Notes under the pieces: generated by a model | What the model was told of the DNA's origin: nothing | The model's input: only the letters and a program-made list of their open reading frames with translations | Database searches by the model: none | Shown: piece by piece, positions 4,580 to 46,097 of the stretch | Layout: each line of letters opens with the position of its first letter | Position numbering within the stretch: the first letter of the stretch is position 1 | Translations under genes and position numbers: made by a program | Assembly: GCA_932294295.1 (NCBI GenBank) | Contig: OW028575.1 | Coordinates: 36,458,253-36,522,252, forward strand | Length of the DNA: 64,000 nucleotides | DNA from: Alitta virens | Lineage: Eukaryota; Annelida; Polychaeta; Phyllodocida; Nereididae | Direction of reading: 5' to 3'

Positions 4580-4852
4580 ATGCTTAAAGTTCACAGAGAT
4601 ACTATTAGAAAAAATGTTGTTAGTTTAGTACGAGAAGTTCCATGTGGAGATGTTTTACCTTCCCTTTTTGAAGATGGTATTTTAAGTCATGACATGGTCT
4701 CAGAAATTTTAGAAAAACCAGCCTCTGAAGGAAATTGCTTTTTGTTGTTGCTATTGCAAAGAAGGGGTCCAAAAGCCTTTTGTTCATTTGTGAAAGCACT
4801 CAAACATGCTAACAGAAAAGATCTGGCCAATCATTTAATCTCTTTTCAATAG
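4580..4852 (+). CDS. CARD-domain protein, element A
   Basis: This is a 90-residue protein with an ATG start at 4580, and nearly its whole length is one domain. The pattern is that of a caspase-recruitment domain of the caspase-2/9 or CRADD type: a first helix with LVREVP, then EDGILS (the L-x-x-x-G-I/L-L turn), an EIL helix, LLLLLQRRGPKAFCSFVKAL (the RRGP-AF--F--AL signature) and a final LANHL helix. CARDs assemble homotypically in apoptotic and inflammasome complexes, so a stand-alone viral CARD could act as a decoy. That role is inferred. The homologue in element C (45801) shares LVREVPC, DGIL, EIL and LLQRRGP-AF-SF-KAL. It is the first gene inside the left terminal repeat. Confidence 0.8.
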   Translation: MLKVHRDTIRKNVVSLVREVPCGDVLPSLFEDGILSHDMVSEILEKPASEGNCFLLLLLQRRGPKAFCSFVKALKHANRKDLANHLISFQ

Positions 4853-5271
4853 ACAAGTAAGCTCTAGTGTAAATAATCAGGTTTTACTGTCAGTCACATG
4901 CTCACTTGTATGTGAAGTCTTCATTATTCAGTATTTTACATCAAAGTGTTACCTTTTTATATTCACAAATGCACATCACATTTAACTTTAAGATGTTTGT
5001 GTTTGCACATGTCATGAAGCATATTAATCAAAGAGCATGATAGTCTTTAATCTTATTGGTCTCATAATGGTTCTATTTTTTTCTGATTTGATACCCAGTA
5101 TCAGAGGTCATCTCATTATACCTTTGATATCAGTTTATGTTTTGATACCCATTTTCAAGTTTTTGATTTCTAGCTCTAAAACACAGATCTGATCATTTTT
5201 TACACTAAAATTTTTGATCCCAAAGACATGCATAAGTCACATGAGGTCATTTATTTTTAGCCACATTGCCC
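4853..5271. other. Intergenic spacer with possible promoter sequence
   Basis: No gene seen between the CARD gene and the TATA box at 5272. The stretch holds repeats of ttttgatacc and gtatcagaggtcatctc-type sequence around 5080-5160. Confidence 0.5.
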
Positions 5272-5279
5272 TATATAAG
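5272..5279 (+). promoter_or_regulatory. TATA box
   Basis: TATATAAG lies about 100 bp upstream of the open frame ending at 5784, in a spacer after the CARD gene. It is a good match to a core TATA element. A transcript start near 5305 would be expected. Confidence 0.5.
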
Positions 5280-5379
5280 CCTTGACCTGACAATACAACT
5301 CACATTCATACTTTTGACATTACCAAGATGCTTACATTAAGATGGATACTTTTTTGCCCATGAACACTGTAAGGGGCAA

Positions 5380-5784
5380 TTGTGTAAATTTATTTTACAT
5401 CAACAGCAAGGTGCTCCATCTCACACTATTGATCAATCTCTACAAGACTTTAACATCAGGAAATCTAATTTCCAACTTCCTGATATTTGGTCACTGAAAT
5501 TTTATGTGGAACAAGATGAGTTTGAGACTGGCATCTCAGATAGTGAAGACACTTTAGTATCATTTCATAAATTACTGAATTACTATCATCAAAGGAGTCA
5601 TATGAGACTAAAATGGATGTTGCTTGCATTCAATGACTGTGAAAAACACCAACATGTTGCAGTTGTGCAAAAAAGTGAATATTATTTTTACAGTCTTCAA
5701 GAATGTTTGGAAGACTTTTATAAAAACTCTGATCTACCAGAATGTGATCTTTATGCCATGAAAATATATGCATTGTATGTTTGA
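5380..5784 (+). CDS. Unknown accessory protein, element A
   Basis: The open frame runs from just after an in-frame TAA at 5338-5340 to the stop at 5784, but has no ATG near its beginning. The position given is the first alternative TTG. The true start may be an upstream exon, or the gene may be shifted. The coded sequence (about 134 residues) is charged and hydrophilic with several histidines, shows no signal peptide or clear domain, and ends in a helical, acidic segment (LEDFYKNSDLPECDLYAMKIYAL). It sits between the CARD gene and the membrane-protein gene, so an accessory role is likely. AATAAA signals follow near 5854. Confidence 0.45.
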   Translation: MCKFILHQQQGAPSHTIDQSLQDFNIRKSNFQLPDIWSLKFYVEQDEFETGISDSEDTLVSFHKLLNYYHQRSHMRLKWMLLAFNDCEKHQHVAVVQKSEYYFYSLQECLEDFYKNSDLPECDLYAMKIYALYV

Positions 5785-5986
5785 TTATGTTCACCTGTAT
5801 TTAACATGTATTTCATAAGTTAATTGTAATATTTCATGTTTTACCTGTGGTGTTTAATAAAATATAATAAATTACAAAATCTTTTTGTTTTTTGATTATC
5901 ACCACACTGATCTCAGTACAGACAGGGTTAATACTGTTTGAATAACATAATTTGGTCATTTGACATTAGTAAAACACTCAGCTAAA

Positions 5987-6172
5987 ATGGATGTAGTTGA
6001 ACTTAATGTTTTTAAATACAGCATAGAGGGTTTATTGCATCATAGTTATAACAAGTTTCTCTATACCCTATATTCATTATGTGATGACATGAACTGTAGA
6101 CCTGTTTCAGGTTACATGCATGACTACCCTAAGACAATACATGGATGTGCCATGTCTACTAAGTGGAATTGA
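5987..6172 (+). CDS. Small unknown ORF, element A
   Basis: A 61-residue frame from ATG 5987 (preceded by aaa) to TGA at 6172. It has a helical leucine/tyrosine-rich stretch (GLLHHSYNKFLYTLYSLCDD) and no known domain. It could be a fragment or first exon of a longer gene. It occupies the same kind of position as the ORF after the CARD gene in element C, but I see no clear similarity. Confidence 0.3.
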   Translation: MDVVELNVFKYSIEGLLHHSYNKFLYTLYSLCDDMNCRPVSGYMHDYPKTIHGCAMSTKWN

Positions 6173-6297
6173 GGGTTACTTTGCTTTCCTACTTAATGAA
6201 GTTATGCAATATTTCCATCATCACTTCCACAGTAGATACCATTGACTTAAGAGATACTGATTATTATTATTATTGACAACAAATTTTGACAACAAGT

Positions 6298-11148: not shown

Positions 11149-11197
11149 TTTCAGTTATTGCAAAAAAGAGAATGAGCCATCATCTCATTTTCAGCAA

Positions 11198-11562: not shown

Positions 11563-11621
11563 CCCCTACCCACTTGCAGGGTAACTTTCATCACTTGGGA
11601 CCAGCATCTCAACAACTGAAC

Positions 11622-12699: not shown

Positions 12700-13104
12700 T
12701 CAGTACATAAAAAAGTGTCTGTTAATGTTCATTATATTAGATAGTTGTTCAAATTCTCCTTTCTTCAGATTTACTCCACATTTAGTAGGTACTTTTTCAA
12801 TGTCACCAGGTGGTACCCAAAACAATCTAATGTCAGCTGTGCCGTCTGTCACCCTGAGTTTGATGTCATCATTTATGAACAGTTCAAGTTCTTCTTTAGC
12901 CTCCAATGCTGCTAGAACTCTTGGTGATAGATTCATCAGAACTTTGGCATCCTTTGGAGAAAGACAGACTCCTTTTTTGGTTGGAAGTGAGTATTCATAC
13001 ATTCTTAGATGTAGCAGCATTTTGCCATGATATTCCTTGTATGTAACTCTGTAACCTCTACCTAAGTCCTCCTCAAAATAGACCACATCATTTACTATAG
13101 CCAT
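12700..13104 (-). CDS. Tandem PC4-like DNA-binding protein, element A
   Basis: The ATG at 13104 gives about 134 residues. Two domains resemble the C-terminal domain of the transcription coactivator PC4/SUB1, which binds single-stranded DNA. The first has YRVTYKEYHGKMLLHLRMYE, then LPTKKGVCLSPKDAKVL. The second has IKLRV, then DIRLFW, then PTKCGVNLKKGEFEQL. The recurring signature is [DH][IL]R-x-[YF] followed by PTK-x-GV-L. A role in transcription or replication of the element is inferred. A TATTTAAG box sits about 32 bp upstream. Element B has the same two-domain design split by an intron. Confidence 0.72.
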   Translation of the reverse strand: MAIVNDVVYFEEDLGRGYRVTYKEYHGKMLLHLRMYEYSLPTKKGVCLSPKDAKVLMNLSPRVLAALEAKEELELFINDDIKLRVTDGTADIRLFWVPPGDIEKVPTKCGVNLKKGEFEQLSNIMNINRHFFMY

Positions 13105-13135
13105 CTTGATAGTGATCAATAGATGATCACAGCTG

Positions 13136-13143: not shown

Positions 13144-13177
13144 CTCATCTCAGCTGCTGGTGAGTTCAGTCTGATTG

Positions 13178-14258: not shown

Positions 14259-14984
14259 TTACTGTGCTTTATATACCGTAGTTAGATCATCATCAGGAAA
14301 AATATGTGACCTGAGCCGTAAATTTTGTGGAGTGTGATTGTGTAAATCTATGATAAAGTATGTGTATGGTCTTGGTGTGGCTAGGCTATATGCATCGCTC
14401 AGCTTAGGGATGTCAATTTGTCTACCTAGAGTCTTCACCTGCAGTATGTCTCTGGTATTGGCCATTAAGATAAAGACTTGAGTATTGAGACTTAGACTTC
14501 GACCATGCTTTGATTTGACAAAGATGTTGTGAGTTAGCAAAATCACTGTACAGTGATTGTGATGGGTGCCTACAGTAAAAAGCTTTAGTATTGAATCGGC
14601 ATCGGATGCATCAGTCATTAGGTCATCTAGGACTAGTAGCTTGTGGTCATTACTCGATGTTTGAAAGTCTTCTAAATCACCATCACTTGGCATACCATGA
14701 TGAAATGTAATATTATCAATTTCTTCCTGCATCTTGTCAAACTTTTGCTGCCAAGTACTGTTGTAACAGTACATGATATTTTTTGGAGTCTGTTGAAATA
14801 AATCATGCTTTAGTAAGCGGTAGACAAACGAGGTCTTGCCTCCTTGCGTCGGTGAAGAAATAATTATGTTACTTGGACTTGGAAATAGTATGAGGACTTT
14901 GTCTTGTGACATTGTCTTCCAGGATTCTGGCACATCACTATGTTCTTCTACAAAAGAGATATCTACAATGTTTGGTCTCTCCAT
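14259..14984 (-). CDS. FtsK/HerA-type DNA-packaging ATPase, element A
   Basis: 241 residues, close to the length usual for this family. Walker A is PTQGGKTS at residues 45-52 and Walker B is LLVLDDLM near 116-123. A conserved TH motif (VILLTHN) follows, and the C-terminal YFIIDLH with LRLRSHIFPDDD is the typical ending. In Polintons and adintoviruses this enzyme pumps DNA into preformed capsids. It lies directly downstream of the capsid gene with a 35-bp gap, in the usual order. B and C homologues keep both Walker motifs but are shortened or broken. Confidence 0.92.
   Translation of the reverse strand: MERPNIVDISFVEEHSDVPESWKTMSQDKVLILFPSPSNIIISSPTQGGKTSFVYRLLKHDLFQQTPKNIMYCYNSTWQQKFDKMQEEIDNITFHHGMPSDGDLEDFQTSSNDHKLLVLDDLMTDASDADSILKLFTVGTHHNHCTVILLTHNIFVKSKHGRSLSLNTQVFILMANTRDILQVKTLGRQIDIPKLSDAYSLATPRPYTYFIIDLHNHTPQNLRLRSHIFPDDDLTTVYKAQ
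14268..14275 (-). promoter_or_regulatory. TATA box for the small conserved gene
   Basis: TATATAAA on the minus strand, 35 bp before the ATG at 14233, inside the last codons of the ATPase gene. It suggests that the two small genes have their own promoter. Confidence 0.55.
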
Positions 14985-15019: not shown

Positions 15020-16288
15020 TTATTTCAGAATGACATTCCTGGTACTGGATATCTCCATGAGAGCAGGTGTCTCAGCATGGATCAAGAGACATGCAGCCTT
15101 CGTGAGTGCAGTTTTAAAGCTGATGGGCAGTCTGGTGTGACCTTGGTCAGGCAAAGTGGAACTTCTGAATGTAGGTTTTATGTTAAATGCATACAATGCA
15201 TAACTCCTGCTATAGTCTGACAAATTAATGTCATTTGAAAAATCATTACCAAGCTCTTTGAATGCCTCATAAAGACTTAGGTAGCTGGGTGCTACCCCTG
15301 TGCCCTTATCATCAAAGGTTGGAGTGTAAGTTGCTGTGGTGGTACCATTGACAGTTAGTGATATCCTGTTTAGATCAAATGGCTTAAAATTGAATGGGTT
15401 TTGTTTCACATCTCCATTGTATGCTTTAGCAGGTACTAGGGCTGTAATAATTCTTGAAGGAAGCTGGTTGGGAAAGATATTTTCCAGGGTCCCTGATGTA
15501 AAACCAATAGGTAGGTTTTCCACTCTGATCTCCCTACGAGTGTAAGGGTACAATGCTGGCTGGGTTTCCAGTGTCCTAGCTATAGAGTATTGAACACTGG
15601 GGTCAAGATCAACCATTCTTGCTTTGAATACCACATCCTGCAATGTCAGCTTGTAAGATACTGCTGTTTCAAGATTCATCAAGATAAATTCTTGCGGCAT
15701 CCTGTCTAATTTGATGGTCAAACGGGTATTGTTGAGTAAGTATCTTTTCTGCATGAACACATCTTCATAAAGGGGCCCCTGTAACTCAACAGTGTTTGAC
15801 TTTTGAAATAGTTTGTATCTTCTGGCCCCTCCAACATTTTCTGTAATCTTGTCCATATCATTTGAGTCATCTTTAAAGTAGCCCTGTGCTTGAAGCTTAC
15901 TGTCCTTGGTGTCTTTCTGATAACTTAGTAATGTACTGAACATGGCTTTAAAGGGATAGGCTTTGTTACTTGTGGTGACTTCTTTACCTTCAATTGTAAC
16001 TGTGATTTTTTCCCACAGGCTGTGTAGAATGTTGTTGACTGGAATTACTTTTTTAGCAGTAATAACAGCGGCACCATCTTTTTTAACAATTTTTAGTTTA
16101 ACATAAAGCTGGCTGTTGTATAGATCAATAAAATGCTTCTGCTCAGTGATATCAAAAAGCACAGGAGCCTCATCGGATAGCTGTGTTATGGGGCGGTAAT
16201 CAGTATTGTATTCTCTCTCAACAGCAGTCTGCACAACCGGCGGGGAAAACAAATCAAGCTCGGCCAAACTTGCGCTTTTTACTGCCAT
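15020..16288 (-). CDS. Major capsid protein (double jelly-roll hexon-like), element A
   Basis: 422 residues, intact. The sequence matches the Maverick capsid family whose nematode members are annotated as F54H12.2-like proteins. Key blocks are the N-terminal IDLYNSQLYVKLKIV strand pair, VNNILHSLWEKITVTIEGKE with AYPFKAMF, then YLLNNTRLTIKLDRMPQEFILM. The C-terminal half has NPFNFKPFDLNRISLTVNG and ends near RSSTLPDQGHTRLPISFK. It is the shell protein of the predicted virion. The start codon overlaps the end of the core-protein gene by 35 bp, as expected for a compact virion operon. Confidence 0.92.
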   Translation of the reverse strand: MAVKSASLAELDLFSPPVVQTAVEREYNTDYRPITQLSDEAPVLFDITEQKHFIDLYNSQLYVKLKIVKKDGAAVITAKKVIPVNNILHSLWEKITVTIEGKEVTTSNKAYPFKAMFSTLLSYQKDTKDSKLQAQGYFKDDSNDMDKITENVGGARRYKLFQKSNTVELQGPLYEDVFMQKRYLLNNTRLTIKLDRMPQEFILMNLETAVSYKLTLQDVVFKARMVDLDPSVQYSIARTLETQPALYPYTRREIRVENLPIGFTSGTLENIFPNQLPSRIITALVPAKAYNGDVKQNPFNFKPFDLNRISLTVNGTTTATYTPTFDDKGTGVAPSYLSLYEAFKELGNDFSNDINLSDYSRSYALYAFNIKPTFRSSTLPDQGHTRLPISFKTALTKAACLLIHAETPALMEISSTRNVILK

Positions 16289-17085: not shown

Positions 17086-18169
17086 AATTTTTAATTTCAT
17101 GTGCATCAACCCAACTGTTGAATTTTGCAGGGTAACCCAGCCAGCTGACTAACCCCTGATGTTTACCACCTTTAATGCGGTATCTGAGTACACGTTCTAC
17201 TTTATATAGGTCATCATCCCCAACATGAGCCATCTGCAGCTCCTGTTCGTAAAAACTGCCTTTAATTTATTCTTGCTGTAAGTCAATCAGCCTGTATCTG
17301 GGTGGATGTGAACGTACTTGTTTGTGGATAAGAAATAATTCCTCAGACCATTTTTTATCGTAACCTGTGTCAAAGGGTCTTCTTGCATAAGAAACTCTAA
17401 CCTTATCACCTATTTTAAACTTGTAATAGACAGGAGTGTTTTCTCTCTTCAGTTCTATTGGCAGATATATTTTCTCATACAGCTCTTGTTGATTTTCAGG
17501 TGTGACCTTAGAAGGAGGCATACGGATGGAAGAGTGAATGGTATCATTGTAACTATGAACCAGAGACTCCAGGCTGTCAATGTAACGGTGGGTCTGGTGA
17601 TGGGTAAAATAACGAAACAAGCGGCCCTTGACCGTCCTGATGGCTCTCTCTGCATAATTTGCATGGTAGACATTGTATGTGATGATGTGATGTATACCCA
17701 AAGATGATAGGAGTTCTTGAACTTGTTTTGCTTTGTATTCTGACCTCTGATCAGTCCTCAATGTCCTGGGTGCATTGTCTTTAGTAAATACTTTCTTCAT
17801 GGCTTTTATCATTTCATCCCCAGTTTTTCTTATCATAGGCTCTATTCTTAAATATCGAGAAAACAGATCAATGAATATGGCCAGATATTTCGCCCCATCA
17901 TTTTGTCTACTGAATTTTTGCATGTCCATTAAATCAGAGTCCCAGATTTCATTTATTTCCCCAACTAAAATGGCTTCCCTTGGGAATTTCTCTTTGGTAG
18001 GTTTGTGGAGGGAATAAGAGTACTGTTTTGATTGCCAGTCCCTGACATCTTTAAATCTTAATCTGAGTGGGTTGCCATCAGCTTTGATGCTTTGCCAAAA
18101 TTTTGTTATCCCCGTGAAACTTCCTGCTTTATTGGTTTGGTAATAAATGGATTTCAAGTAATCATCCAT
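17082..18169 (-). pseudogene. DDE (rve) integrase with chromodomain, one in-frame stop, element A
   Basis: The frame is open for 300 residues, then has a TAA at 17267-17269. It continues in the same frame for about 61 codons to TGA at 17082-17084. The catalytic triad is visible: D79 (WDSDLMDM), D140 (LRTDQRSEY) and E174 (YAERAIRTVK). The usual glycine after the second Asp (TDxG) is Arg here. Downstream of the stop is a clean chromodomain (YKVERVLRYR, then SWLGYP, then SWV). The stop therefore separates the catalytic core from the chromatin-targeting domain. Whether the short form works is unknown. The enzyme joins element ends to host DNA with 6-bp duplications. Confidence 0.88.
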
Positions 18170-18452: not shown

Positions 18453-21400
18453 TTATATGCTAAGATAACCAAATGGTACAGATATATAATTGTCCAGCAA
18501 AATCCTTTTGTCAAAGACAAGATGAGCTGTCTTGTAGGTTGTTCTGTTGAAGATACCTCCATTAACTTTATCCCTGGTAAAAAGGTTGTAAGGAGGTAGC
18601 TTGATGGTCAGTTTTTGATTAATCAGATCCTGCATGCTTTGGAAATTGACAATATGTATATTAGAAGAGTTGATGGTTAGGCCTTTAAACTTAACACATT
18701 CTGAACCATCAGTAAGTCTGTAGGCATAGGATTTTGGTCCTGAAGAAATGAATTCAGTGATCCACTGACCCTGAGGTAGTTCATCTGTGAGTTGACCTAA
18801 AAAGTCCCCCAGGGGAGGCATAGGGTCCCCCTCCTTGGCTGTGTACAAAACACTATCAGTGTCCATGTATAAAACTCTGCGGCCAAGGAAGTCAATGAGG
18901 TTGTACAGTTCAAGTCTGCCCAGCATGTAGTGAATGATGCTATCACATCATTGGATTTCAGGTTGTCTGGCTCAAAGGTTGTTCTGCTCTTGCTTTCTAC
19001 CATTAGGCACTCTTCATTGACCATGTGGATGTTGATGATCTCTGTTGTGGGGTCATTCATCATTCTTTTAAATTTGACAGGATCTGTGAAATAATGATTA
19101 TTGGTCTGGTTGGGTTTCTGACCAAATTTACCCCAAAAGCTATTGAGAGCTAGCTTTGCAACAGTCCGTAGGCCTGGATTGTGTTTGATGTTCTCTTTTC
19201 TAAGAGTGATTCCCTCAGCAGTCTGGTATTGCTCTATATACCTCTCCATATCAGCATCAGTCTTGACCCAGCTGGGCTTTCCTGAGGATTCCTGCTTGAT
19301 GCGGAGAAAGGTGTCCACATATTCCCTAAACAGGGTGTCAGAGGTCTGTTCCCAGTGGTATACTTCATATATCTTGAGAACAGTGTAGCCTTTTTCTATT
19401 GCTTTCATAATCTCTGGTGTGCAATAGGTCCCTGTTATTGCTCTCTCATCTGTTGTACACTGACAGGGTTTGATGTTTTCATTGTCACAGCATGTCCTAC
19501 AGAGAGGAAATGTCAGTTTTCCTCTGCATCGGTAAGGTAGAACAGCATGATACAGAGATTGCGGTGGGAGTATCTTCAACTTGGCTATACCAAAGTAAGA
19601 TGCCATTGAATAATCAAAGTCCCTGGTTATTATCTTTGGGTGCCGGACAGGTAGAGGCTTGTACTTGTTGATGAATGAATAGAGACTTGTGAAGTCATAA
19701 AAATGGATCTTCTCCCCCGGCTGCACCTTGTGGTAGATAGATACTGGTATAACCCTTCCTCCAAAAAAAAAAGATCTAATGTCCAGCCTCTGGGGTATGT
19801 CAAGCTTGGAAACAAAGTCATTCATCACTGGAGATTCCTTGACCTGCTGGTCAAATTGACATTCCCATATTGTCACCAGCTTGGGGGCTCTGGTCTTGAG
19901 AAATTCTTCTCTATTCATGGTCTTGTCATGGAGTTCTTGCATGGTAGAACCTCCTGGCCTATCTCTTATATGTCTATCAGGAAAACAAGTAGCACATCCA
20001 TGCCAACGGCAACCATAAAATTCATAGAGTACTCCACTTTCACTGGCTCCATCAATTCTATATTTGTCTACCTTGAACTCCCCAGTGTTTCTAGCATGTT
20101 GAATTGATATGTTGTTTTTATGACTGAGATATTCTAGCCACTGGATTGACTTGTAGCTGTGGTTGTTTCTTGCAATATAGCCATTGGATGGTATGTGTGC
20201 AATATCAGAAGCCTCAAATAGCTTTTCTTTGATTTCTCCTGCTGGCACAGTGTCAGTTCCATTGTGATAATTGCCTCCCTTTTTCTTCAGAGTGACCTTA
20301 CTGTTATCCTGCAGGGTAGCATCATAATATTCTACCAGGAAGTTTTGTCTGAAGATCTGCATGCAGGTTGATGCAATTGTAACTTCTGAGAAAGGATCAG
20401 TGCTTTGCATACCATCATCAGTTTCAACAGAGGTAACATCTTTAATTAGTTTTCTGAATGTCAATGATGCCTTTCTGAGAATCTCAACATCAGTCCGGCA
20501 GTATTCCTCCATGTCCTTGTGCATGTCATAGGGTCCTATTCTATTCCTGTACCAGTCAGCTTCAATGTCCCTGGAATAATATTGCATTTCAGGGTAACTA
20601 GCAAAATGCCTCTGCTGGAAGTGTTCCCTAGTATTGAATTTGTGTGGGAAGTCCCCCTTGTTTAGTGCTGCAGAAAGGCCTAGTGTCTTTGGTAGTTTTT
20701 TTAGAGCCATTGGCATGAAACGGTAGGAGTCTATTAATCTCATACTGAGTCCTGGGACATGCATGTAGAGAATCTTGGTGCCATTCCTTATGATCTTGGG
20801 AAATATACCATTATTGATCAGATAATGCTGAAGGAAAACAAAATCATAATTACTGCCACAATGGGCCATTGAGGTATAACCTTTGTGGCTCTCATGAAAT
20901 AACCAGCGTCCAAAGTCTTCAAGAGTATTTTGTCCTTTGAACATGACCTCCTTCTTGTAGCAGCTGGGGCAGGTTGAACTCTTGCTGTGGTTGTGACATT
21001 GTACACCACAGGAGTTGCAATGTGTCTGTTGGTCGGTACATTCTGAGCATTCAGTCTGTGCAATGACCATATTTGGTATATGTTGAGAGAGTCCACAGTA
21101 CCAAAGGTTACAATTACTGCATCTACGGCATGTTGGGCAAACATAGTCTTCAGTGCATGTCTGACAAGTTGACCTCTTAGTGGGCATGTAACCATCTTGA
21201 CATTGAAAGACCTCATCCTGTGTTGCTTCAAAATCAAAAAATATGAACTTCTCTGTACTTGGTTTTGCCTCAGCTGATCTCATGTAGCAGTGGTGCTCCC
21301 CTACAAAGAACAGACTACAGCACTGACATTGCCATTCATGGCAAACATGCTCCTCTCTGCTTCGGTATAATGTGTTGAGCAGTTTCCTACAGCTTGTGCA

Positions 21401-22969
21401 TTTGAAATACATATCACATCTGGAGAGTTTGTCTTGATCCTTCCTGGGTCCCTTCTGATATTGTTGTGTTTCCTTGTGAGTGTGGTAGCATTGCAGACTG
21501 CGACACAGTCTGTTGCAGTCTTTGCAATGGAGTTTGCCATCCCAGGTACATTCTTCTCTATTGCATACAGGGCATCTTTGTGAACAGTGATGAGTGGAAT
21601 TTCTCCCATAAAACTGGAGACATGCTGTGCAGATTTCTTTGCTAGCAAATAAACCATGTATGTTTGTTATTGCATGAAAATGGTCTCCATCCTTGTAGAG
21701 AAATATTTTGGACTTCCTGGACTGGTTCCCAGCATATGTAATATCATGTCCTACTGTTTTGTCTATTACAACAATCTGTACATCAAGATGGTTTTCAAAT
21801 TTGTGAAATTCCCTAATTTCAATTTGTCTGTTAGCAGGTATATTTACCTCTTTTAGTAGCTGGAGGGCTCTACTTAGCTGTGAATTAGATCCAGGCCGGT
21901 GAGCTCTTTGGTGGTCAATGAGATGGTGATATTGTGGATCTTCTTGAAGTTTTGCCATGCATATGACAATGGCTCTTGCAGCACAGGTAACATCATTAGG
22001 CAGCTCAGGAATGGTAACAATACATTTCTTTCTAAACAGAGAACTGTTCTTGTCTTGAGTATTTGTGCTGGTGATGAGTAGTCTTTTTTGTTGTTTCTGA
22101 GAATGACAAATATGATGAGACTGCTTCTTGTAAAACATCTTGCAGTTAAAACAGATCTCTCTGTTTGGAAGGAGTCCTTCAATGTTGATTATGGAATGCA
22201 TGCCATTGTCTTGGTATAAAAATATTCTGCTTTCTCTGGTTTCATTCATGTGTAAGATGTTGTAGTCAGCATCAACAACAATTATTTGAACATTGAAGTG
22301 ATCTTCAAATTTGAATAATTGTGACAGCTCAATTGATCTGTCCCAGGGGAGTTGTAGCTTGGTGAGTATTCTCCTTGCTCTTCCCAGTTGAGAATTAGCA
22401 CCTAGTTGGTGTGCCTTATCTGCTCTGATTAGGTTGTTAAAAAGTGGGTCTTTCCTTAGTTTGGCCATGCAGACAATGATGGATCTGGCAACACCTGTAG
22501 TATCATTTGGTATTTCTGGAATAGTGATGATAGGACTGCCTCCACCTTTGTCAGGATGAAAAATACCAAAATTAACATGGAAAGAATTGTCAACACTGAG
22601 ACTCTCATCAGACTGTAGCACTTTTTCCATGCGGTCCATAATGGTCTTTCCAGTGATGAGGGATTCAGGTCTCATATGAATAACAATATCCTGTCTGAGA
22701 TCATTGTGCTGTATGACAACTCTTGCCTTATCATGTGGTCCATGTCTCTCTGTTGCCTTGTCAACTACATCTTGAAACATGTCCTCAAGTTGTTGTTGCA
22801 TGTCTATCAATCTATGACCCATGTATTGCTGATCAAAGGTTGCTCTGAAGTTCCTTTCTTCATAGCCATATCTCCTGGCAACTCTATGCTGAATCTCCTT
22901 GATATGGTAAGGTAAAAGTCTTGGAGCTTTAACTCTTGAGTTATCATCAAATAAAGATTGTTTTGCCAT
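18453..22969 (-). pseudogene. Protein-primed family B DNA polymerase, one frameshift, element A
   Basis: The first frame (18797-22969, 1390 residues) carries the exonuclease motifs: ExoI FIFFDFEATQ (about residue 575), ExoII SNYDFVFLQ (about 703) and ExoIII YCRTDVEIL (about 825). It also has polymerase motif A DFTSLYS (about 1093) and motif B LALNSFWGKFGQ (about 1275). A one-base shift near 18926 moves motif C (YMDTDSVLY) into the second frame (18453-18926), which ends normally with FDKRILLDNY. The N-terminal region has two tandem copies of a domain of about 150 residues (near 145-300 and 313-470). Cysteine-rich segments flank ExoI. The total length is in the range of Maverick polymerases. 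The enzyme replicates the element from its termini. Confidence 0.92.
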
Positions 22970-23739: not shown

Positions 23740-24427
23740 TGAGGTCATGAACTTTGACCAGGGTAAATAACACTGGTCTCCCCTCTGGTGAGTCACAAGG
23801 GTAAAAATAGCAGATCTCCCCCCTGGTGAGTAACAAATTTTAGGTCAGAGGACTGTAGTGTTTAGTTGTCTAGCCTAGAATATCTATCTATATCTGTCTA
23901 GAATTGTCTAGCCTATCTATATTTGTTCTAGACTATCTGTCTATATATCTGAGTAGATTAGAGTGGCTTATTAGAGAGGAGGTGGCTTATTAGACAGGGC
24001 GGTTGCAAATGGGGGGGGGGGGCTAGAGGACATAGAGAATGAAAGTTAGTATGGGAAGTGCCAGGTGATAGGCTAAGTAGACAGTGGATCAAAAGTAGGT
24101 GAAGTAGGGTCAAGCAGGATCAAGGGGGGGTCGATGAAAGTTAGCATGGGAAGTGCCCCGTGTGCTAATTAGATATGGGGATCGATGAAAGTTAGCATGG
24201 GGACAGGGGATCAAAGAGGGTCAAGTAGGGTCAAGTGGGGGGGTCAAGTGGGGTCAAGGGGGGGGGGTCGATGAAAGTTAGCATGGGAAGTGCCTGGGTG
24301 CAAAGAGAAAGGTCAAGTGGGGTCAAATTTTTGGTGATTTTTGGGGGGGTCAGCTAGAGGACATCGAGGATGAAAATTAGCATGGAAAATTGGGGGGGGG
24401 GGGATCAGACCTACCCCTCTTAGTAGT
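23740..24427 (-). repeat. Right terminal inverted repeat of element A
   Basis: Reverse complement of 3570-4458. Both read actactaagaggggtaggtc from the outer end. It has fewer copies of the C-rich internal unit than the left copy. Confidence 0.88.
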
Positions 24428-24433
24428 GCTGTA
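24428..24433. repeat. Right target-site duplication of element A
   Basis: gctgta follows the right terminus (cctcttagtagt). It is identical to 3564-3569. Confidence 0.88.
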
Positions 24434-26020: not shown

Positions 26021-26103
26021 TTTGTGTGTTGCGATATATGTTTTGATATGAGAGTTTAGCAAGTCTTCGTAGAAGCGAGATAATGCATAGATCCAGTATC
26101 AGG

Positions 26104-26854: not shown

Positions 26855-27091
26855 TCAAGTGTTAAGTGTTGCACGTTTGTCAGCCAAATCTCTAATGACG
26901 CGTTTGTACAATATAAGAGACTTCTTATAGCCTCGTTTTAATGTCACAATGCCCGTGAGAATATTTCTAGCTATTTCAACCACTGCCAGAATCTGACTCT
27001 TACTAATATGTGATAAGATAGCTTTAACTTGATCCTTGCTAAGTAAAGCCACGACTTTTAAAAAAGTAATGTTCTCTTTCATCTGTTTCAT
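26855..27091 (-). CDS. Small conserved Polinton protein, element B
   Basis: 78 residues from ATG 27091, overlapping the ATPase stop by four bases (ATGA). It is helical and basic with FLKVVALLSKDQVKAIL, EIARNILTG and YKRVIRDLADKR, matching the 13922 gene of A. The product ends earlier than that of A, so its C-terminal basic half may be lost. Confidence 0.62.
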   Translation of the reverse strand: MKQMKENITFLKVVALLSKDQVKAILSHISKSQILAVVEIARNILTGIVTLKRGYKKSLILYKRVIRDLADKRATLNT

Positions 27092-27720
27092 GATTGAGGG
27101 AGAAACACAATCGTTTCCTCACCTGGAAATATATTAGAACGTAATTTATATTGTTTGTCAACATTGGGTGATAAATCTATTATTAAATAACCATAGCTCC
27201 TTTTAGTAGCACGTTCATAACTGTCCATGAAATACTTCGTTTCACCAGGTAGAACCTGGCTTGTTAAAGATGATACCTGGTGGCCATTTCTATGATTACA
27301 AAAAAGGCATATACAATGAGAATTTCTACTTATTAATCTAGCAGCTTTACTTTCATAAAACATGTCTCGTAAAGTTATAATACATGAAACATGACAATGG
27401 TGGCTAAGAACGCATATTATTTCAGCAACATGTGAACCCTGACGGTTATCATTCAAATTACTCATTTGGTCATCAAGAACAAGTAAACTGTGAGCTCTGT
27501 TTGTTTCCCAGAGATCTGTTAAATATTGTTTTGATGGAATATCTTTCCTAAATTCTATAATATCACCTAAGATATTTTCTAGGTCACTGAAATTATCCTG
27601 CCATACAGAGTATACATATATTATCTTTGCAACTTGAGGTGTAAACATTGTCTTATAATTTATTAACAAACGTTTAACAAACTCCGTTTTTCCAGCCTGT
27701 GTACATGTTTGCTCTGCCAT
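27088..27720 (-). CDS. DNA-packaging ATPase, element B
   Basis: 210 residues with Walker A TQAGKTEF almost at the start, Walker B SLLVLDDQM and the C-terminal YGYLIIDLS with LRSNIFPGEE. About 35 residues that precede Walker A in element A are missing. Either the start is truncated or a short upstream exon exists. It follows the capsid gene with a 34-bp gap, as in A. Confidence 0.82.
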   Translation of the reverse strand: MAEQTCTQAGKTEFVKRLLINYKTMFTPQVAKIIYVYSVWQDNFSDLENILGDIIEFRKDIPSKQYLTDLWETNRAHSLLVLDDQMSNLNDNRQGSHVAEIICVLSHHCHVSCIITLRDMFYESKAARLISRNSHCICLFCNHRNGHQVSSLTSQVLPGETKYFMDSYERATKRSYGYLIIDLSPNVDKQYKLRSNIFPGEETIVFLPQS

Positions 27721-27754
27721 GATGTAACAGTTATGACAGATGTTTGTGTACTAA

Positions 27755-29191
27755 CTATACATCCGTCACACCGCGGTATTTATCAATAGTAACTGTAGCA
27801 GGAAACTTTGCAAAAACAATAAGTGTTGTGGGTTCCGGTAAAGCCTCAGCAAATCTTAGACTGATGCGTAAATTACCTGTGCGCTTTAATGGCAGGATAT
27901 CGTCATTGTTAGAAATATATTGAGAATCAGCATCAAATCTATAGAATGTATAACCTTGCATATATTCTTCGTGTGAAAGAGGATTAAAATGGTCACCATA
28001 CTCAATTCCACAAAGAGTTTTGTATGCATCTATGTACGAGCTTGTTTCGGGTTTTTTGTTATATGAAGGCATGATGGGACCTTGACCTAGGTCATGACCA
28101 TCTACAGTTTCTTGAATGAAATTGAGAGAAGTGTGTTCAAACATAAATGGATGTGTAAACAGAGTGCCATGATTACTAACATCTGTAACTAAACCACAAA
28201 CCATCTCGCATGGTACTCGTCCTGCAAAAGGATCATTAACAGTACATGAAAACTGTCCTTTACCCAATGTGAATTTTTTAACCTCTGTTTTAATATATGG
28301 AAAAATAGCTTGTTTGTCATGCCTTATTTCAGCATGAGATACCAATATTTCGGGTATTACTTCGATCATTGAAACACTTAAGGAAGCTCTAGTAATCTGT
28401 ACTTTATAACCACCAGCTGTCAACTCAGGAGCCATTAAGCAGAACTCAGGCATACTAGGATATAATGTGATACCTAAATTCACACCATTTGGTATGAACT
28501 TGTATATCTCTAAAATATCACAGTACAAGTTACCTGACATATCTACCTCATTGGAGTTAGCAAAGAAACTAGATCTTTTTGTTAATCCTTTGTTATCTCC
28601 TAATTGCCAATTAGGATCTCCTAACTCTCCAGGTGTATCCTTGTAAAACATTCCCATTTAGAGAGTAGTATTTTTCATCTCAGTGTTGGTATGTAATAAA
28701 GCTTTGAAATAAGCTAGATATGGATACGATTCATCAGAATGTGTCAGCACTTTATTCTGTAGTGCTACATCAACACGGCTAAACATTGAATGCATAAAAT
28801 TGTTAACTACTCCAACAGAAGCCTGTTTATTAGATGTAGTAGATGTGTTAGCAGAGGTTGAGGCACTAGCTTCAGCATCTGTGCTTTCTTCGTCTTTTGC
28901 TCTCTTCTCTTTACTATTGCTATCTTTTGTTACTGTAACAGGCTCTATACTAGTTCCATTTTGTCTTACAATTTTGCACGTAATATTAAGTCGTGTCCTG
29001 CGCAGGTCTAAATAATTACTACTATTATTATTAATTTGAAACTGTATAACACCTTGAGTTGAAAAATCATTTACAGGATAAAAAGTCGTTATATGATTAT
29101 TCTTAATGTCTACATTTTGTATAGGTTTCTGGAATATTGCTAATTCTTCCGAATAACCTATATACACATCATCTAAAACTTCTTGGGTCAT
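27755..29191 (-). pseudogene. Major capsid protein with one nonsense codon, element B
   Basis: A 479-codon frame runs from ATG 29191 (MTQEVLDDVYIGYSEEL) to 27755, broken only by TAA at 28658-28660. The N-terminal part has the jelly-roll start (IQFQINNNSSNYLDLRRTRL), a K/E/S/T-rich insert and VVNNFMHSMFSRVDVALQNK with YPYLAYF. After the stop come FYKDT, FIPNGVNLGITLYPSMPEF and LRISLRFAEALPEPTTLIVF. A single C-to-T change in a glutamine codon would explain the stop. A methionine follows immediately, but no internal capsid start is expected. Confidence 0.86.
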
Positions 29192-29240
29192 TATGTAATT
29201 ACTCAAACAGCTCCGCCACGTGACCAATCTTAAACTTCTA

Positions 29241-29360
29241 TAGCGCCACCTGGTGTCCAAATTCCTTAAAACTTCGATAGCTCCACCTGGTGTCCAATAA
29301 TCGATCCTCAGCGCCACCTGGTGCCAAATCTTAATACTTATAGCGCTGCCTGGCGATATT
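29241..29360 (-). promoter_or_regulatory. Cluster of four CTCF-like motifs upstream of the element B capsid gene
   Basis: tagcgccacctggtgtcca (29241), tagctccacctggtgtcca (29278), cagcgccacctggtgcca (29309) and tagcgctgcctggcga (29341) are spaced 31-37 bp apart. The first differs by about two positions from the reverse complement of the CTCF core as I know it. Their orientation is opposite to the cluster at 1546-1680. They lie just before the capsid start codon on the minus strand, so they could also be a viral promoter element. Confidence 0.5.
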
Positions 29361-39093: not shown

Positions 39094-42000
39094 ATGAGAT
39101 TGGTACTCTTGTTCCTCATTATTGAAATGGCAGAGAGCAGAGATAACCCTTTGATCAATGATTATTTTCAAGAAATTCTAAATTCATTCGATGATGCTGA
39201 GCAATTAGCAATATTTGCCCATAGCAATGATCTTGCGAGAGACCCGCAAGTTATTTCAAGATACAATGAACTTATTTCACCCTGTAATGACTTCTCTGAA
39301 ATGCTTCAAAATTTCAACAATTCACAAGACTTAATGCTATTTGCACAGAGAAACAATCTCACTGAAGATTTCCAAGTTAAAAATAGACTTCATCAATTAA
39401 ACAGTCAACTCATTTCACCCTACAATGACTTCACTGAAATGCTTCAAAATTACAACAATTCACAAGACTTATTATTGTTCGCGTACAGAAAAAACCTAAT
39501 CGAAGATCCGCAAATTCAAAACAGACTTCAACAGTTACAAACACATCTTCATTGTGGAAAATGTTTCAGACAATTCAATGACAGAAATTCTCAAGAATTA
39601 CATCAAAGCAATTGTCAAGGTTATGTTGCATATCCAACTCAAACAACCACTCAATCGTGTGTTCCAACTCCTCAAATCAGTCAACCGGTGCATCCCAAAT
39701 GCTATAATTGTAATGTTTGTGGTAAATCTTTCACCACTAGCTTTAAGAGGAATACACATCAAAAGAAATGTACAGGAATCAAAGAATGCGTACTTTGTCA
39801 TACACAATTTACTTCAGTTTCTTTATTCAGTGTACATAAATGTCAGGAAATGATAAAATGTCAGCACTGTAACAAACAATTTCAAAGTTTCTACGCAAAG
39901 CAAAGACACAAACTTAAATGTCAACTTCCTAAGCGAACAAAACACAAATTTATTAGTCAAAAAAATAATCCAAAGAACCCAACTGATCTCCAGGTACCAC
40001 AGGTACCACAAGTACCACAGGTACCACAGGTACCACAGGTACCACAGCAGACTTTTTCGTGTCCAAATTGTTGCAAAACTTTCCAGAAAAATCCCTCACT
40101 AACTGAACACATGAAAGTTTGCAAGGGAGTGTTTGACTGTCAAAAATGTAAGAAAATTTTCACCAACAGTCTAGCTCATGATTCTCACTCGTGTGAAATT
40201 AAATGTCACTCATGTCACTCTGTATTCAAATCAGAAAAAAGTTTTGGTAAACATATTTGTAAAAAAACTCGAAAAAGGGCTCTTACTGATTCACACTGAC
40301 CAAGCATGTCAAGCATGGGAAGCAAGTCAAGCATGTCAAGCACCAAAAAGGGCTTGTAAAATTCAACCCCACACTAATGATCAGTCTAATATTCAACCAA
40401 GCACTAATGCACATTCAACTATACAACTGAGTGCACATATTCAGTCAACTGTATTATGCGATGTTTGTGGGAGGTTTTTTAACTCTAAAAAAGGGTTGAG
40501 CAAGCATAAATATTATCACAAAACAAATAATAGAATTAAATGTAGACCGTGTTCAGAAGAATTTCAGAATAGACACTCGTTATATCTTCATATAAGAGAT
40601 TCTCATTCCCAACGTGGCAGAGGTCAAGCACACATATTATCCATAGAAGATGAGGAATTACAAGAATTTTACAATAGATATCACTCATTCATTTATGATA
40701 ACCATGAATTAGGACAACCGCAAAGCTTTTATAATTATCCAGTAGTTGAAGATTTCAGCATTGAAGACCTTATGGGTTTTGCTGGCGAAATATACGACGA
40801 TCAAAACCAAACTTTTAATTTAAACTTGTCTTTTGGTTCTATTCTTCAACATATTGAAACTGGGGATTATAGAAATATTTTAAAGCGTACAGCAATTACC
40901 CACTTTAGGATCTTCAGATATCTATTTCTAATAGAACCGATTTAGAAGAACTCAAGGATCATCTGAATGAATTAGATCTAACAGCGTATATAACTAAAGG
41001 CAGGCTTAACACTAAGTGGAAATTAGTTCTAATAACTAACGTTAGATTCTATTACTTCAACAGGCTTCCCTTTAGGTCATGGTGAATTACCAGGTTATAT
41101 AAAAAAAAGCAAATGTATTATATCCCTCACACATAGTTTTTCTCAAAAGAAATATAAGACAACCTTTGTCCATTCAGGTGCTTAGCATATCATAAACACA
41201 GAGATTTGTACAGAAACAACAGAGATTTCGAAGAAAAAGTACAAAACTTCTACCAAAAATTTGCTAGTGTTTGTGAGCAAGATTTGGAAGGAGGAGTTGA
41301 CCTGCAGTTAATTCCAGATTTTGAGAAATTTTTTCAGTTAAATGTCAACATATTTTCTTTACACGAAGATGAAACTGCACACCCCATATTTAAATCTACT
41401 CATAGATACACCAATGCTATGAATTTGAATCTTTACGAGTATCACTTATCATATATCACTAATATTAATAGATATTGTAGTAAATATCAATGCTCAAACT
41501 GTGAAAAGCACTTCAAAACTTTCTTCCTATGCAAAAGACACAGCCAAACGTGTACATTAGCAACGAAATATCAATTTCCAGGTGGTTTTTACGATATGAA
41601 ACAAAACATTTTTGAGCAGTTAGAAGAATTTGCAATAGATGTCCCCAATGATGAACGATTTTACGAATATTTCATAGTTTACGACTTCGAGGCTTATCTG
41701 AAAAAGATTGAAAATGATTCAGTTGAAAACACCATAATGTCAGCAGAACACATACCGATTAGTGTTAGTATTTGTAGTAATGTTCCAGACTTTAAAGAAG
41801 CCCATTGTATAGTCGAACAAGATAGAGAGAAGCTTGTTAAATCAATGCTTGCATACATGATAAGAATTCAAACAACTGCACAAGCACTCATACAAGAGAA
41901 ACTTAGTTATGTTACAGAAGAATTAGAATTACAATTGAGCACTTGGAATACAGAAGTTGATGAGAAAAAAACTTTCAATGCTATGATGCGTAAAAAAATT

Positions 42001-44523
42001 CAAATCATGATTGAAACATTTGAACGTTATTGCACTCAAATCCCGGTTTTAGGATTTAATTCAGCAAAATATGATATGAATTTAATCAAAAGAGAAATAG
42101 CTCTTTGTTTAGAGATGCATAACGTAGAACATAAGTTTGTTGTGAAGAAAAACAATTCATACTCCTGTCTAGCGAATGAGAGTTTTAAATTCTTAGATGT
42201 CATCAATTACCTAGCGCCGGGTACAAGTAATTGTAGCTTTTTAAAAGCTTTTAAAATTCAAGAACAGAAAGGATACTTTCCATACAAATTTTTTGATGAC
42301 CCCTCCAAGTTAGATTATCCAGAATTACCAGCATACGAAGCATTCTACTCTAATCTAAAACAATGTAATGTGTTAGGCTCACACAAAAATTACGAATGGT
42401 TGAAAACAGTTTGGTTTTAGTGAAAATATGAGTTGTTTTAAAGATTTTCTTATATGGTATAATAATTTAGATGTCACACCATTCGTTAAAGCTGTTATCA
42501 AACTACAAGATTTTTATAAGGAGAAGCAAATAGATATTTTCAAGAGCGCTATTAGTGTCCCAGGAATAGCAAGACAGTTAGTTTTTCAGAGTGCTAAGAA
42601 AAATGGTGCACATTTCTCTCTAATAGACAGAGAAAATTCTGGATTATATTTCTGTCTGCTCTCTAATGTAATAGGAGGTCCTAGCATTATTTTCCATGGT
42701 TTTAGTCACAGAGATAAAACATTCATTTGAAATAGTAATAATCGAGTCAAGAAAATAATCGGTTATGACGCTAACGCGTTATATCTATACGCTTTCAGTA
42801 AAGAATTCCCAGTAGGTAGTTTCATTAGTTGACATGCAGAAAACAACTTTAAGCCTGTATTGAGGAATAAATATGATAACATGTTCTATTGGATGGATTA
42901 TTTAAGCAATAAAAGAAATATAAATATTTGGCATAAACGAAATGGGAATAAGGAAAAGAGAGATGGATGTTTCTTAGCAGATGGAGTATCTTCTTCTAGT
43001 GGTAGTACTATGACAAAAAATATATCAGTATGATGGTTGCTATTTCCACCACCACGGTGGAGATTGCCCACTCTTGAGTAAAAATTTGTCTGAGAAAGAA
43101 AAGAAAAAAGGGTTACTCAAACAGAAAAGAAGACAGGATAGGAATAACTACTACAAGAGTCTAGGATACGAAGTCGAGGAAATATGGGAGTGTGAGGGTT
43201 TTTAAAAATGGTTAAAAATACTCCAGACTTACAACAATTCATTGAAAACAAGAGACCAAAGTTTTTCAAAAAATATAAGAAAACTCTAACAGAAAAGGAA
43301 ATTTTAGAAGCAGTGAAACAGGATGAGCTCTTCGGTATGGTAGAAGTAGACATCGCAGTTCCCGAAGAATGGGAACAAGGTTTCCAACAACCAGATAACT
43401 TAGATCCATACGATTATTTTAGTGAGATGTCACCAATATTTTGCACAACAGACATACCATTTGAAGCAATTGGTAAGCATATGCAAAACTTTGCTCGAGA
43501 ATCAGAAATGAGTACAAAACCTAGAAGATTACTAGTAGGTGGAATGAAAGCTAGGAAAATGCTATTAGCTACACCTTTGTTGAAATGGTATTTAAAATTC
43601 ACCAAGTCATAGAATATAACAGAATGAAATGCTTTCAGGAATTTGTTAGCGATGTTACAGAGGCCAGGAGAGCAGGAGATAGAGATCCAGATCTATCAAA
43701 AATTCCGCCTATGGATCAACTACCCTTAATAAACTGAAGCAATCGAATGTTAGATATGTAGAAGGTGAGAATGAGGCTTGTCTCAAAGCTAACGAGAAAG
43801 GATTCAAATCCATGACCCAACTAACACCTGACCATGAATTTTATGAAATCGAATCTCAAAAAAACAAGATTACACTAGATTTACCAATTCAAATAGTTTT
43901 TTTCATTCTGCAATATGCTAAATTAAGAATGTTAGAATTCTATTACGATTTTCTCGTAAATATGTACCAAGAGATAAGTTTCAAATGCTTCAGATGGATA
44001 CCGATAGCAATTACTTTTCAATAGCTGGAGAAACATTACAAGATGTGATTTAACCTGAACTCTTAGATGAATATACGCATAAGTTAAATGGGTATTGTTC
44101 GGTTAAAGATATTGACCCTGATACACACTGGTTTCCAAGAAGGTGTTGTTCAGAACACATGAAATATGACAATCATTGTCCTGGACTATTTAAACTCGAA
44201 TACGAAGGTGAGATATTCTATGGGCTCTGTTCTAAAACCTATATCGTAGCCAACAAAGATCATTGTAAGTTTAGATCTAAAGGTATCTCCAAAAACAGAA
44301 TAAAAAAACCACTAGAAATATTTCAATCTGTCTTGGAAACTAAACAAAAACGTAGCTCTACCAATGTAGGATTTATCAGTAAAAGTAATACTATTTTCAC
44401 GTATCAACAGAATAGAGCTGGATTCTCTTATTTTTATCCTAAAAGGGAAATATTAGCTGATGGCATCACAACCAAACCCTTAGATATAATATTAGAACCG
44501 ATACGAACAAAGTATTTCAGGTA
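39094..44523 (+). pseudogene. Zinc-finger family B DNA polymerase, multiply broken, element C
   Basis: The N-terminal part (39127-40299) has three repeats with F-EMLQN-NNSQDL--FA. These are followed by at least seven C2H2-type fingers (such as CNVCGKSF and CPNCCKTF) and a QVP repeat. A frameshift near 40290 leads to two more fingers (40178-40945). Then come FRCLA near 41170, ExoI FIVYDFEAYL (about 41680) and ExoII LGFNSAKYDMNLI (about 42060). Motif A GYDANALYLYAF is at about 42765, NSAYGSTTLNK (motif B) at about 43696 in another frame, and QMDTDSNYF (motif C) at about 43990. The C terminus has SKTY and FTYQQNRAG. There are many stops and shifts. This type (DNA_pol_B_2-like with fingers) differs from the polymerase of element A. 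Confidence 0.85.
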
Positions 44524-44596
44524 AAAAAATTTAATATAAATATAAAATAAAAAAACCACAAATTTTCACAATATAAATAAAAAAATTTAACAATAT

Positions 44597-45147
44597 TTAT
44601 AACACAGACTCTGCATATCTTTTAGTTCTACTGTGTGTTGATTGACTAGCATGGACACAGGCAACAGAGGGCGGAGTCAAGGATTGTCGAGATTGAAAGT
44701 GAACGGGGGTCCTAGGTGTATGGGGTGTTGGCAAACTCCATCGGTGTGGGTTGGATGGGGAGACTGAGAGGGTTGGAACGGTGAATACGGGGGTATTACC
44801 TCTCACATACTCATCTTTCGTAGAGCCATCTTCCTAAAAGTTAGGAAAAATACTGTTAATGATCATTATAAAGCTGTAAATTCATTATTGCATTGATATT
44901 CGAATTATCTATTAATTTAAATCACTGATAAGAGTTAAATTATTGTTTAAATCTCACTAATTCACTATAATATAACTATATATTTATATATAAATTCATA
45001 CAGCAGATGATACAAGAGGTAAATTATTGTTTAAATTCTACTTACGAATAATTGAACACCTAAAATCATCATCACTCCCGAAAAAATTAAATATAACAAG
45101 TATAAAACTTTATCTTCGGTCATTGGGCAGGTGCAAGTACAATTCAT
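44597..45147 (-). CDS. Two-exon small single-pass membrane protein, element C
   Basis: Exon 1 is 45046-45147 (ATG at 45147). A GTAAGT donor and a TAG acceptor join it in phase 0 to exon 2 at 44597-44833, giving 112 residues. The first exon encodes a Cys-rich start (NCTCTCP) and a membrane helix (VLYLLYLIFSGVMMILGVQL). Exon 2 encodes a Pro/Ser/Thr/Arg-rich tail. With no cleavable signal ahead of the helix, the N terminus is probably short on one side of the membrane. I do not recognise the family. It lies between the polymerase and the CARD gene. Clean splice signals and phase support it as real. Confidence 0.55.
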
Positions 45148-45537
45148 CTTGGAGTGTATATCTCAGTATCGGAGTATCGGAGTATCTGAATATCTGAGCA
45201 ACTGTGTATTGCTGTCTGGATAGATGGATAGATTGTGATGCTATTTAGAAAAAATTCTGGACCTTATATACCATTTCCAGGTGACACTACTCAACTTCAA
45301 AGTTTATTGTTTAAAGTAGGCTTAACTATATGCGAGTTCATCTTAATGCAATGATACCACGATAGAACTATTGTTCCATACCCAATTAACTCCAGGGCTA
45401 CATTTCAGAAGCCACGAAAGTTGGTTTAGGGTAAATTGAAATGAAACCACGACTAGGAGGGTTAACAGAAACCTTGACAGGGGAAAACCTCAGAAGCCAC
45501 GATTTTAAAGGGATACATAAAACAATTGATATGAACT

Positions 45538-45620
45538 TATGGTTGGTTTACCACATAGTTGGTTGACCACATGGTTGGTTGACCACATGGTTGGTTGACC
45601 ACATGGATGGTTGAACACAG
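45538..45620 (+). repeat. 21-bp minisatellite
   Basis: About four units of ggttggttgaccacatggtt-like sequence lie upstream of the CARD gene of element C. Confidence 0.8.
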
Positions 45621-45800
45621 AGTTGAACATATGGTTGAAAAGATAGACTCCTACAACAATTACTCATTTTTGGGGTTATTTAGCAGGTATTTGTGTGCTC
45701 ATTTAGTGTCCACATTTAGCGTCCACATTTCGCGCGCGCGCTTGGCCCACGCGCACTGTCTAAATAAATAAATATTTTTAGTTTGAGACATTACCTTAAA

Positions 45801-46097
45801 ATGCTCAGATGCGATCGTGATGCTTTGCGTAGGAACTTTGTAGTTTTGGTTAGAGAAGTACCTTGTACAGAAGTGCTTTCATTTCTATATCAAGATGGAA
45901 TTCTCAATCAGGATATGGTTACTGAAATATTAGAAGATCCACCATCCAAACGAAATTACTCGCTTTTATTTCTGCTGCAGAGGCGAGGACCGGCTGCATT
46001 CACATCCTTCCTTAAAGCTTTGAAGGAAACAAAAAGAACCGATCTAGCTTATCTCTTAACCAATCTTGAAGACAAATTCACAAAAGTATCGATATGA
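45801..46097 (+). CDS. CARD-domain protein, element C
   Basis: 98 residues from the first ATG at 45801. One CARD fills most of the protein: LRRNFVVLVREVP, then LYQDGILNQDMVTEIL, then LLFLLQRRGPAAFTSFLKAL, then LAYLL. It is clearly homologous to the CARD of element A (4580), with the LVREVPC, DGIL, EIL and LLQRRGP-AF-SF-KAL stretches shared. It is intact although most genes of C are dead, which could mean it is still useful to the host or simply short. The stop overlaps the next start (ATGA), a viral-style overlap. Confidence 0.8.
   Translation: MLRCDRDALRRNFVVLVREVPCTEVLSFLYQDGILNQDMVTEILEDPPSKRNYSLLFLLQRRGPAAFTSFLKALKETKRTDLAYLLTNLEDKFTKVSI

Follow-up and report, generated by a model that had tools for sequence, protein, structure and literature searches.

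Stand-alone CARD genes in Polinton-type elements of the annelid Alitta virens

The CARD is a domain by which proteins of animal cells dock onto one another to set off cell death. Proteins that consist of a single CARD are already known from iridoviruses, and CARD proteins are known from herpesviruses. Here we describe two stand-alone CARD genes in a stretch of 64,000 nucleotides from the annelid Alitta virens (contig OW028575.1, positions 36,458,253 to 36,522,252; hereafter the window), one of which lies inside a Polinton that is complete in outline (element A) and the other of which is likely carried by a decayed Polinton (element C). The CARD is a known kind of protein; the Polinton seems to be a new carrier of it, and there are signs of trade between divergent carriers. 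In the open-licence literature on Polintons, Mavericks or adintoviruses in connection with apoptosis or immunity, no CARD in a Polinton appeared among the matches listed, which were mostly titles and the starts of abstracts.

The closest described systems are the vCARD proteins of ranaviruses and other iridoviruses (GIV-CARD 027L of 91 aa and frog virus 3 64R), which like the Polinton proteins are made of a CARD only and which are encoded by large DNA viruses. The grouper iridovirus CARD is described as inhibiting apoptosis and lowering the activity of caspase-8 and -9 (PMC4457926), and a vCARD knockout of frog virus 3 is described as causing more apoptosis than the wild type (PMC4974522). The likeness of viral CARDs to the Polinton CARD was seen with those of other iridoviruses and is at the level of the fold only, with 15–18% identity and Foldseek E values of 0.17–1.5. 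In addition, the carrier here is a Polinton with an integrase instead of an iridovirus, and the nearest solved relative is RAIDD, whereas GIV-CARD has been reported to be ICEBERG-like. The E10 protein of equid gammaherpesviruses 2 and 5 is also a viral CARD protein with a similar fold; however, it is longer and has a part beyond the CARD, whereas the Polinton proteins are the CARD alone.

Among host proteins a single CARD is found in ICEBERG, COP/Pseudo-ICE and INCA, of which ICEBERG and COP are described as caspase-1 decoys (PMC4457926). These are host genes, and RAIDD and Dronc give the Polinton family higher scores than they do. The Polinton CARDs align collinearly with RAIDD (CRADD), Dronc and caspase-9 from near the N-terminus, but RAIDD and the initiator caspases (Dronc, caspase-9, CED-3) have a death domain or a protease part and the Polinton proteins stop after the CARD. 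Mobile elements with other genes of this kind have been described as well. Adintoviruses, which are Polinton-like viruses of animals, have a DNA polymerase B and an integrase as element A does, and most mammal-associated ones are said to encode anti-apoptotic homologues and/or candidate oncogenes; the main text of this source does not mention a CARD (PMC11071296). The Burro giant retroelements of planarians are, like the Polinton studied here, animal mobile elements with apoptosis-type domains, in their case BIR and BCL2-like domains, and are suspected of host interference. Burro is a long terminal repeat retroelement with these domains in a polyprotein, and a CARD is not mentioned in the cited parts of this source (PMC6431247).

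The two CARD proteins and their relatives

The two open reading frames (ORFs) are:

4580..4852, plus strand: in element A, intronless ORF for a CARD alone, 90 aa, uninterrupted between ATG and stop
45801..46097, plus strand: in element C, ORF for a CARD alone, 98 aa, uninterrupted between ATG and stop, identity to the element A protein 59%

An earlier note on this DNA had placed intact stand-alone CARDs at exactly these coordinates, and the profile search that it proposed bears this out: both ORFs match the Pfam CARD profile PF00619 with 40.9 bits each (E 2e-10; 2.2e-10 for C), well over the curated cutoff of 23.9 bits, the matches covering positions 1–82 and 1–84 of the 85 positions of the profile. 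The A and C proteins share 53 of 90 residues in a gap-free alignment, the C protein finds the A gene by tblastn with an E value of 1.3e-29, and it matches the RAIDD CARD with an E value of 1.9e-6. A convergent, non-homologous helical protein is ruled out by the Pfam score together with the A–C identity. The model of the A protein has six helices (residues 2–19, 22–31, 37–45, 48–62, 64–76 and 80–89) at a predicted local distance difference test score (pLDDT) of 83 and superposes on solved CARDs, with 82 residues aligned to an Apaf-1 CARD at 2.0 A. The expected six-helix death fold was thus seen in the model of A, and C is known by its sequence match. As predicted from sequence and model, the A protein is a single six-helix CARD without an enzyme or adaptor part; the C protein is, judged by its profile match, a single CARD and nothing else.

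Three further intact CARD-only proteins (P0003, P0004 and P0005), which match PF00619 and are 87–92% identical to A or C, were the sole relatives in searches of protein collections that yielded 4, 7 and 388 candidates. Their longest contigs, of 576–716 bp, are too short for genomic context. The alignment of the five sequences has 44 of 98 columns common to all. When the family profile built from these five sequences, A and C included, was run on the 593 stop-to-stop segments of at least 40 aa in the whole window, the two CARDs scored 193 and 170 bits; no further CARD was detected, the next-best segment having 6.0 bits. Scans of IMG/VR gave no confirmed relative of the A or C CARD or of the putative capsid, ATPase, polymerase or integrase of element A, no relative turned up when the CARD alignment was run against prokaryote genome contigs, and an NCBIfam scan and a PHROGs scan (five core ORFs only) added nothing on the CARDs.

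By sequence the nearest CARDs are those of RAIDD, which is the best match throughout, Dronc, caspase and Apaf-1, with CARD9 matching weakly. BCL10 is not among the lists of sequence matches, and ICEBERG is present in the profile search at an E value of 0.013. The top viral folds found with Foldseek are the CARD proteins of lymphocystis virus and cod iridovirus and the herpesvirus E10.

Directly after the C CARD, an ORF of 104 aa (46094–46408, plus strand) begins with an ATG sharing bases with the CARD's stop codon (ATGA), a layout resembling the stop–restart pairs of some viruses. This ORF has no Pfam match and, by tblastn, no counterpart in element A.

The elements around the CARD genes

Element A extends from 3570 to 24427 and has the following features besides its CARD:

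3564..3569, unstranded: target site duplication, left copy GCTGTA, read directly
3570..4459, plus strand: left terminal inverted repeat, beginning ACTACT, from blastn of the ends
12700..13119, minus strand: PC4-domain protein, PF02229 E 1.2e-10
14259..14984, minus strand: candidate packaging-type ATPase, 241 aa, P-loop TQGGKT read directly
15020..16288, minus strand: putative major capsid protein, 422 aa, from tblastn homologues
17267..18169, minus strand: retroviral-type integrase, 300 aa, PF00665 (rve) E 2.3e-14
18797..22969, minus strand: DNA polymerase B, main ORF of 1390 aa, PF03175 E 1.3e-43
23740..24427, minus strand: right terminal inverted repeat, ending AGTAGT, from blastn of the ends
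24428..24433, unstranded: target site duplication, right copy GCTGTA, read directly

With its target site duplication, inverted ends, polymerase and integrase, element A is a Polinton that is complete in outline. By blastn, pieces of its ends are 84–98% identical over bases 1–890 on the left and 1–688 on the right, with gaps, and when the outermost 830 and 760 bases are aligned, 614 of 662 aligned positions are identical. The end motif ACTACT//AGTAGT is none of the three vertebrate motifs, for example AGTAGT//ACTACT, given in the cited passages of PMC8097293. Going inwards from the left end, the CARD gene is the first that can be recognised, at 120 bp from the repeat, and the polymerase lies at the opposite end. 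This copy of the polymerase is broken, as the part with YMDTDS, which we take to be a polymerase motif, sits in a different frame in an overlapping ORF (18453–18926).

The 241-aa P-loop protein, presumably a packaging-type ATPase, has no Pfam match and has homologues in element B (see below) and at 62.1–62.5 kb by tblastn. The 422-aa protein, which we take to be the capsid protein from its size and place, has no Pfam or PDB match, and its tblastn homologues lie in element B (E 4e-38) and at 57.3–58.4 kb (E 6e-30). PC4 is a single-stranded-DNA-binding coactivator domain. No protease was found among the ORFs of element A that were scanned, and the ORF at 4328–4570, overlapping the left repeat, has no Pfam match.

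For the C CARD the surrounding genes are less well preserved:

39094..44524, plus strand: ORFs with zinc fingers, and remains of a broken DNA polymerase B, from tblastn and motifs by eye
57252..62474, minus strand: remnant core genes, whole stretch, from tblastn with element A proteins (as are the four rows below)
57252–58445, minus strand: putative capsid
59834–60780, minus strand: integrase
60897–61151, minus strand: 13491-like gene
62072–62474, minus strand: ATPase

The homologues of integrase, capsid and ATPase, 11–16 kb from the C CARD, are clear matches. The polymerase match is weak: tblastn with the A polymerase gives an E value of 0.002 at 42890–42997, the best of 55 shuffled queries giving 0.046, and none of seven pieces of the remnant has a Pfam polymerase match; the motifs picked out by eye are presumably polymerase-like. 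Since the polymerase and the integrase, capsid and ATPase together make one set of core genes, the genes at 39–46 kb and 57–62.5 kb are probably one decayed Polinton, the two sides being parted by a retrotransposon-like stretch. Termini around the C CARD were not found in the window, and the ends of element C may lie beyond it. Carriage of the C CARD by a Polinton is likely from this gene neighbourhood. The parting stretch (51650–55389, minus strand), apparently nested in element C, has a reverse transcriptase and an endonuclease just under the cutoff, as well as a NADAR domain, which is unusual there, with a weak GDSL-like match. Near the 57–62 kb genes a PC4 match (63560–63988, minus strand; PF02229 E 0.0096) is below the curated cutoff.

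The accessory regions of both elements have a small RING-finger-like ORF with Cys and His residues, at 11574–12014 (plus strand) in A, where PF24921 matches below its cutoff (E 0.0036), and at 48903–49151 (plus strand) in C, recognised by eye, without a Pfam match and with RING2 chains matching at an E value of 0.55 at best; they are possible ubiquitin-pathway genes. In addition, the ORFs at 9216–9767 (plus strand, A) and 47401–48258 (minus strand, C) are Ser/Thr-rich or acidic with a hydrophobic segment and are candidate membrane proteins by eye.

Element B, finally, is interrupted by element A, and the nesting of A inside B at the 6-bp duplication (GCTGTA at 3564–3569 and 24428–24433), implied by the earlier note, is right. 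Its features are:

24482..24754, minus strand: ORF earlier called CARD-like, unsupported, without a Pfam match, pLDDT 46.8
25736..26062, minus strand: PC4-domain protein, PF02229 E 7.4e-9
26855..29317, minus strand: core remnants, whole stretch, from tblastn with element A proteins (as are the three rows below)
26855–27091, minus strand: 13922-like gene
27088–27720, minus strand: ATPase
27755–28657 and 28658–29317, minus strand: pieces of the putative capsid

Judged by its recognisable genes, element B is a decayed Polinton-type remnant with an ATPase, a putative capsid and a PC4-domain gene. Copies of one repeat, in inverted orientation, lie left of A (1593–1695) and at the broken end of the B putative capsid (about 29213–29361), and the start of the ORF at 28658–29317 appears to be derived from the repeat.

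A diverged CARD-like gene had also been proposed for element B, joined from the minus-strand frames 24428–24754 and 3404–3569, which have two and three stops, respectively. We tested the ORF 24482–24754 and the open frame 3404–3568 apart; neither has a Pfam match at E ≤ 10 (24428–24481 was not searched). Against the family profile, 91 of 1000 shuffles were as good as the ORF and 320 of 1000 as good as the open frame. In the pairwise tests the ORF was equalled by 400 of 1000 shuffles against A and by 32 of 1000 against C, and the open frame by 606 of 1000 against A and 193 of 1000 against C; the value of 32 is the sole one that leans towards a CARD, and it is the best of four pairwise tests. 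The single-sequence model of the ORF mixes helices with strands at the low confidence given above. With no profile match, scores near those of shuffles and such a model, the third CARD is rejected on what the two pieces show when searched apart, though element B may hold a genuine split gene that has diverged very far. At least three Polinton-type elements are present (A complete in outline, B and C decayed), and of the three CARDs once claimed two remain, in A and, with likely Polinton carriage, in C.

Selection and exchange between elements

The A and C CARD genes have the same start residue, no introns and no insertion or deletion over 90 codons, and the codons differ at 37 of the 53 identical residues. 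Their differences fall on codon positions 1, 2 and 3 as 32, 16 and 56 (chi-square p 8e-6), and the LWL85 method gives 0.32 nonsynonymous (dN) and 1.6 synonymous (dS) substitutions per site, a dN/dS of about 0.2, dS not being finite by NG86. In neutral, substitution-only simulations the frame stays open in 167 of 20,000 runs. From this codon pattern we conclude that the past of the CARD gene, as read from the two copies, was one of purifying selection. The conclusion is not drawn from the survival of the C ORF: the C polymerase remnant consists of 10 open pieces, chained by eye, in 3.3 kb and thus has nine breaks, a rate at which about 0.8 breaks would be expected in 297 bp, with a chance of about 45% of none. 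The intact C ORF is therefore compatible with chance and no evidence of selection after insertion, and domestication of C cannot be argued from it.

The flanks of the two ORFs have no significant similarity, the likeness ending at the ORF. As the flanks are unrelated and the synonymous sites near saturated, we reject a recent origin of the C ORF as a piece of an A-like element. When C and the 57–62 kb genes are taken as one element, the core proteins, compared as local pieces of decayed genes, are 24.9–32.4% (integrase) and 25.9% (putative capsid) identical to those of A, the ATPase pieces 30.7% over 75 residues and 48.5% over 33 residues, and a polymerase piece 47% over 35 residues. At 59% the CARD is better conserved than the capsid, the integrase and most of the ATPase, which suggests a later transfer between the two lineages or capture from a shared source. 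Together these comparisons suggest that divergent Polintons came to have a selected CARD gene in common because they exchanged it or captured it repeatedly. The counter-defence function proposed in the earlier note is plausible in view of the stand-alone proteins, the purifying selection and the viral CARD precedents, but the gene seems to have been exchanged or captured repeatedly rather than conserved alongside the core genes.

A possible role of the Polinton CARD

By analogy with the CARDs of the grouper iridovirus and frog virus 3, we suggest that the Polinton CARD may be a decoy that keeps the host cell alive, to which we give a probability of roughly 0.55. The gene would have been taken from an animal gene, with an initiator caspase (its N-terminal CARD) or a RAIDD-type adaptor as the likeliest source because these are the nearest relatives. 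Its product would bind to a CARD in the host, either in an initiator caspase or in the adaptor of one, and would cap or poison the CARD–CARD assembly, and cell death would be delayed while the Polinton replicates and is packaged. The identity and codon patterns support that selection has kept the gene and that divergent Polinton lineages within the host came to have it in common; the route would have been recombination or repeated capture. The more specific proposal, that the CARD is a cassette which blocks the assembly of initiator caspases and which the divergent Polintons of this host exchange as a unit, is tentative, and we hold it at somewhat less than even odds.

As the main alternative, the Polinton CARD might be an agonist: by seeding CARD filaments, or by recruiting a partner such as a caspase or a BCL10-like protein, it would switch on NF-kB or another pathway favouring the element. 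Herpesvirus E10 is such an agonist and is among the nearest viral folds, and a lone CARD can in principle nucleate filaments. Nevertheless, we consider an agonist unlikely: the nearest CARDs are those of RAIDD, Dronc, caspase and Apaf-1, with BCL10 missing from the match lists and CARD9 only weakly present, and the E10 targets have 311 and 511 aa against 90 and 98 aa here. Somewhat less likely still is that one host gene, for a CARD-only protein or a caspase, was captured twice independently and that both copies are now functionless passengers in the elements. The end of similarity at the ORF and the fair chance of the C ORF having stayed intact by luck (9 breaks per 3.3 kb) would fit such captures; the common start residue, the lack of introns and indels, the strong codon-position bias and the three further intact relatives do not. 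Least probable in our view is that the second CARD (45801) belongs to the host, either as a gene of its own or as a domesticated Polinton gene, and is no working gene of an element, as its intact ORF within a decayed element without detected ends could indicate: the A copy, 59% identical to it, lies inside a complete element with a target duplication, and the survival of the C ORF fits chance and shows no sign of domestication.

Both small proteins can be expressed, and the decoy proposal can be tested by ordinary cell assays. If it is true, capture of CARDs would extend from herpesviruses and iridoviruses to the Polinton group. It is still argued whether Polintons are transposons or endogenous animal viruses, and Polinton viral particles are described as unobserved as of 2021 (PMC8097293). 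A selected gene of anti-apoptosis type makes most sense for a lytic replicator or an infectious agent, and trade of a decoy CARD cassette among divergent Polintons would mean that they go through a virus-like phase that kills cells and during which a block on apoptosis is of benefit.

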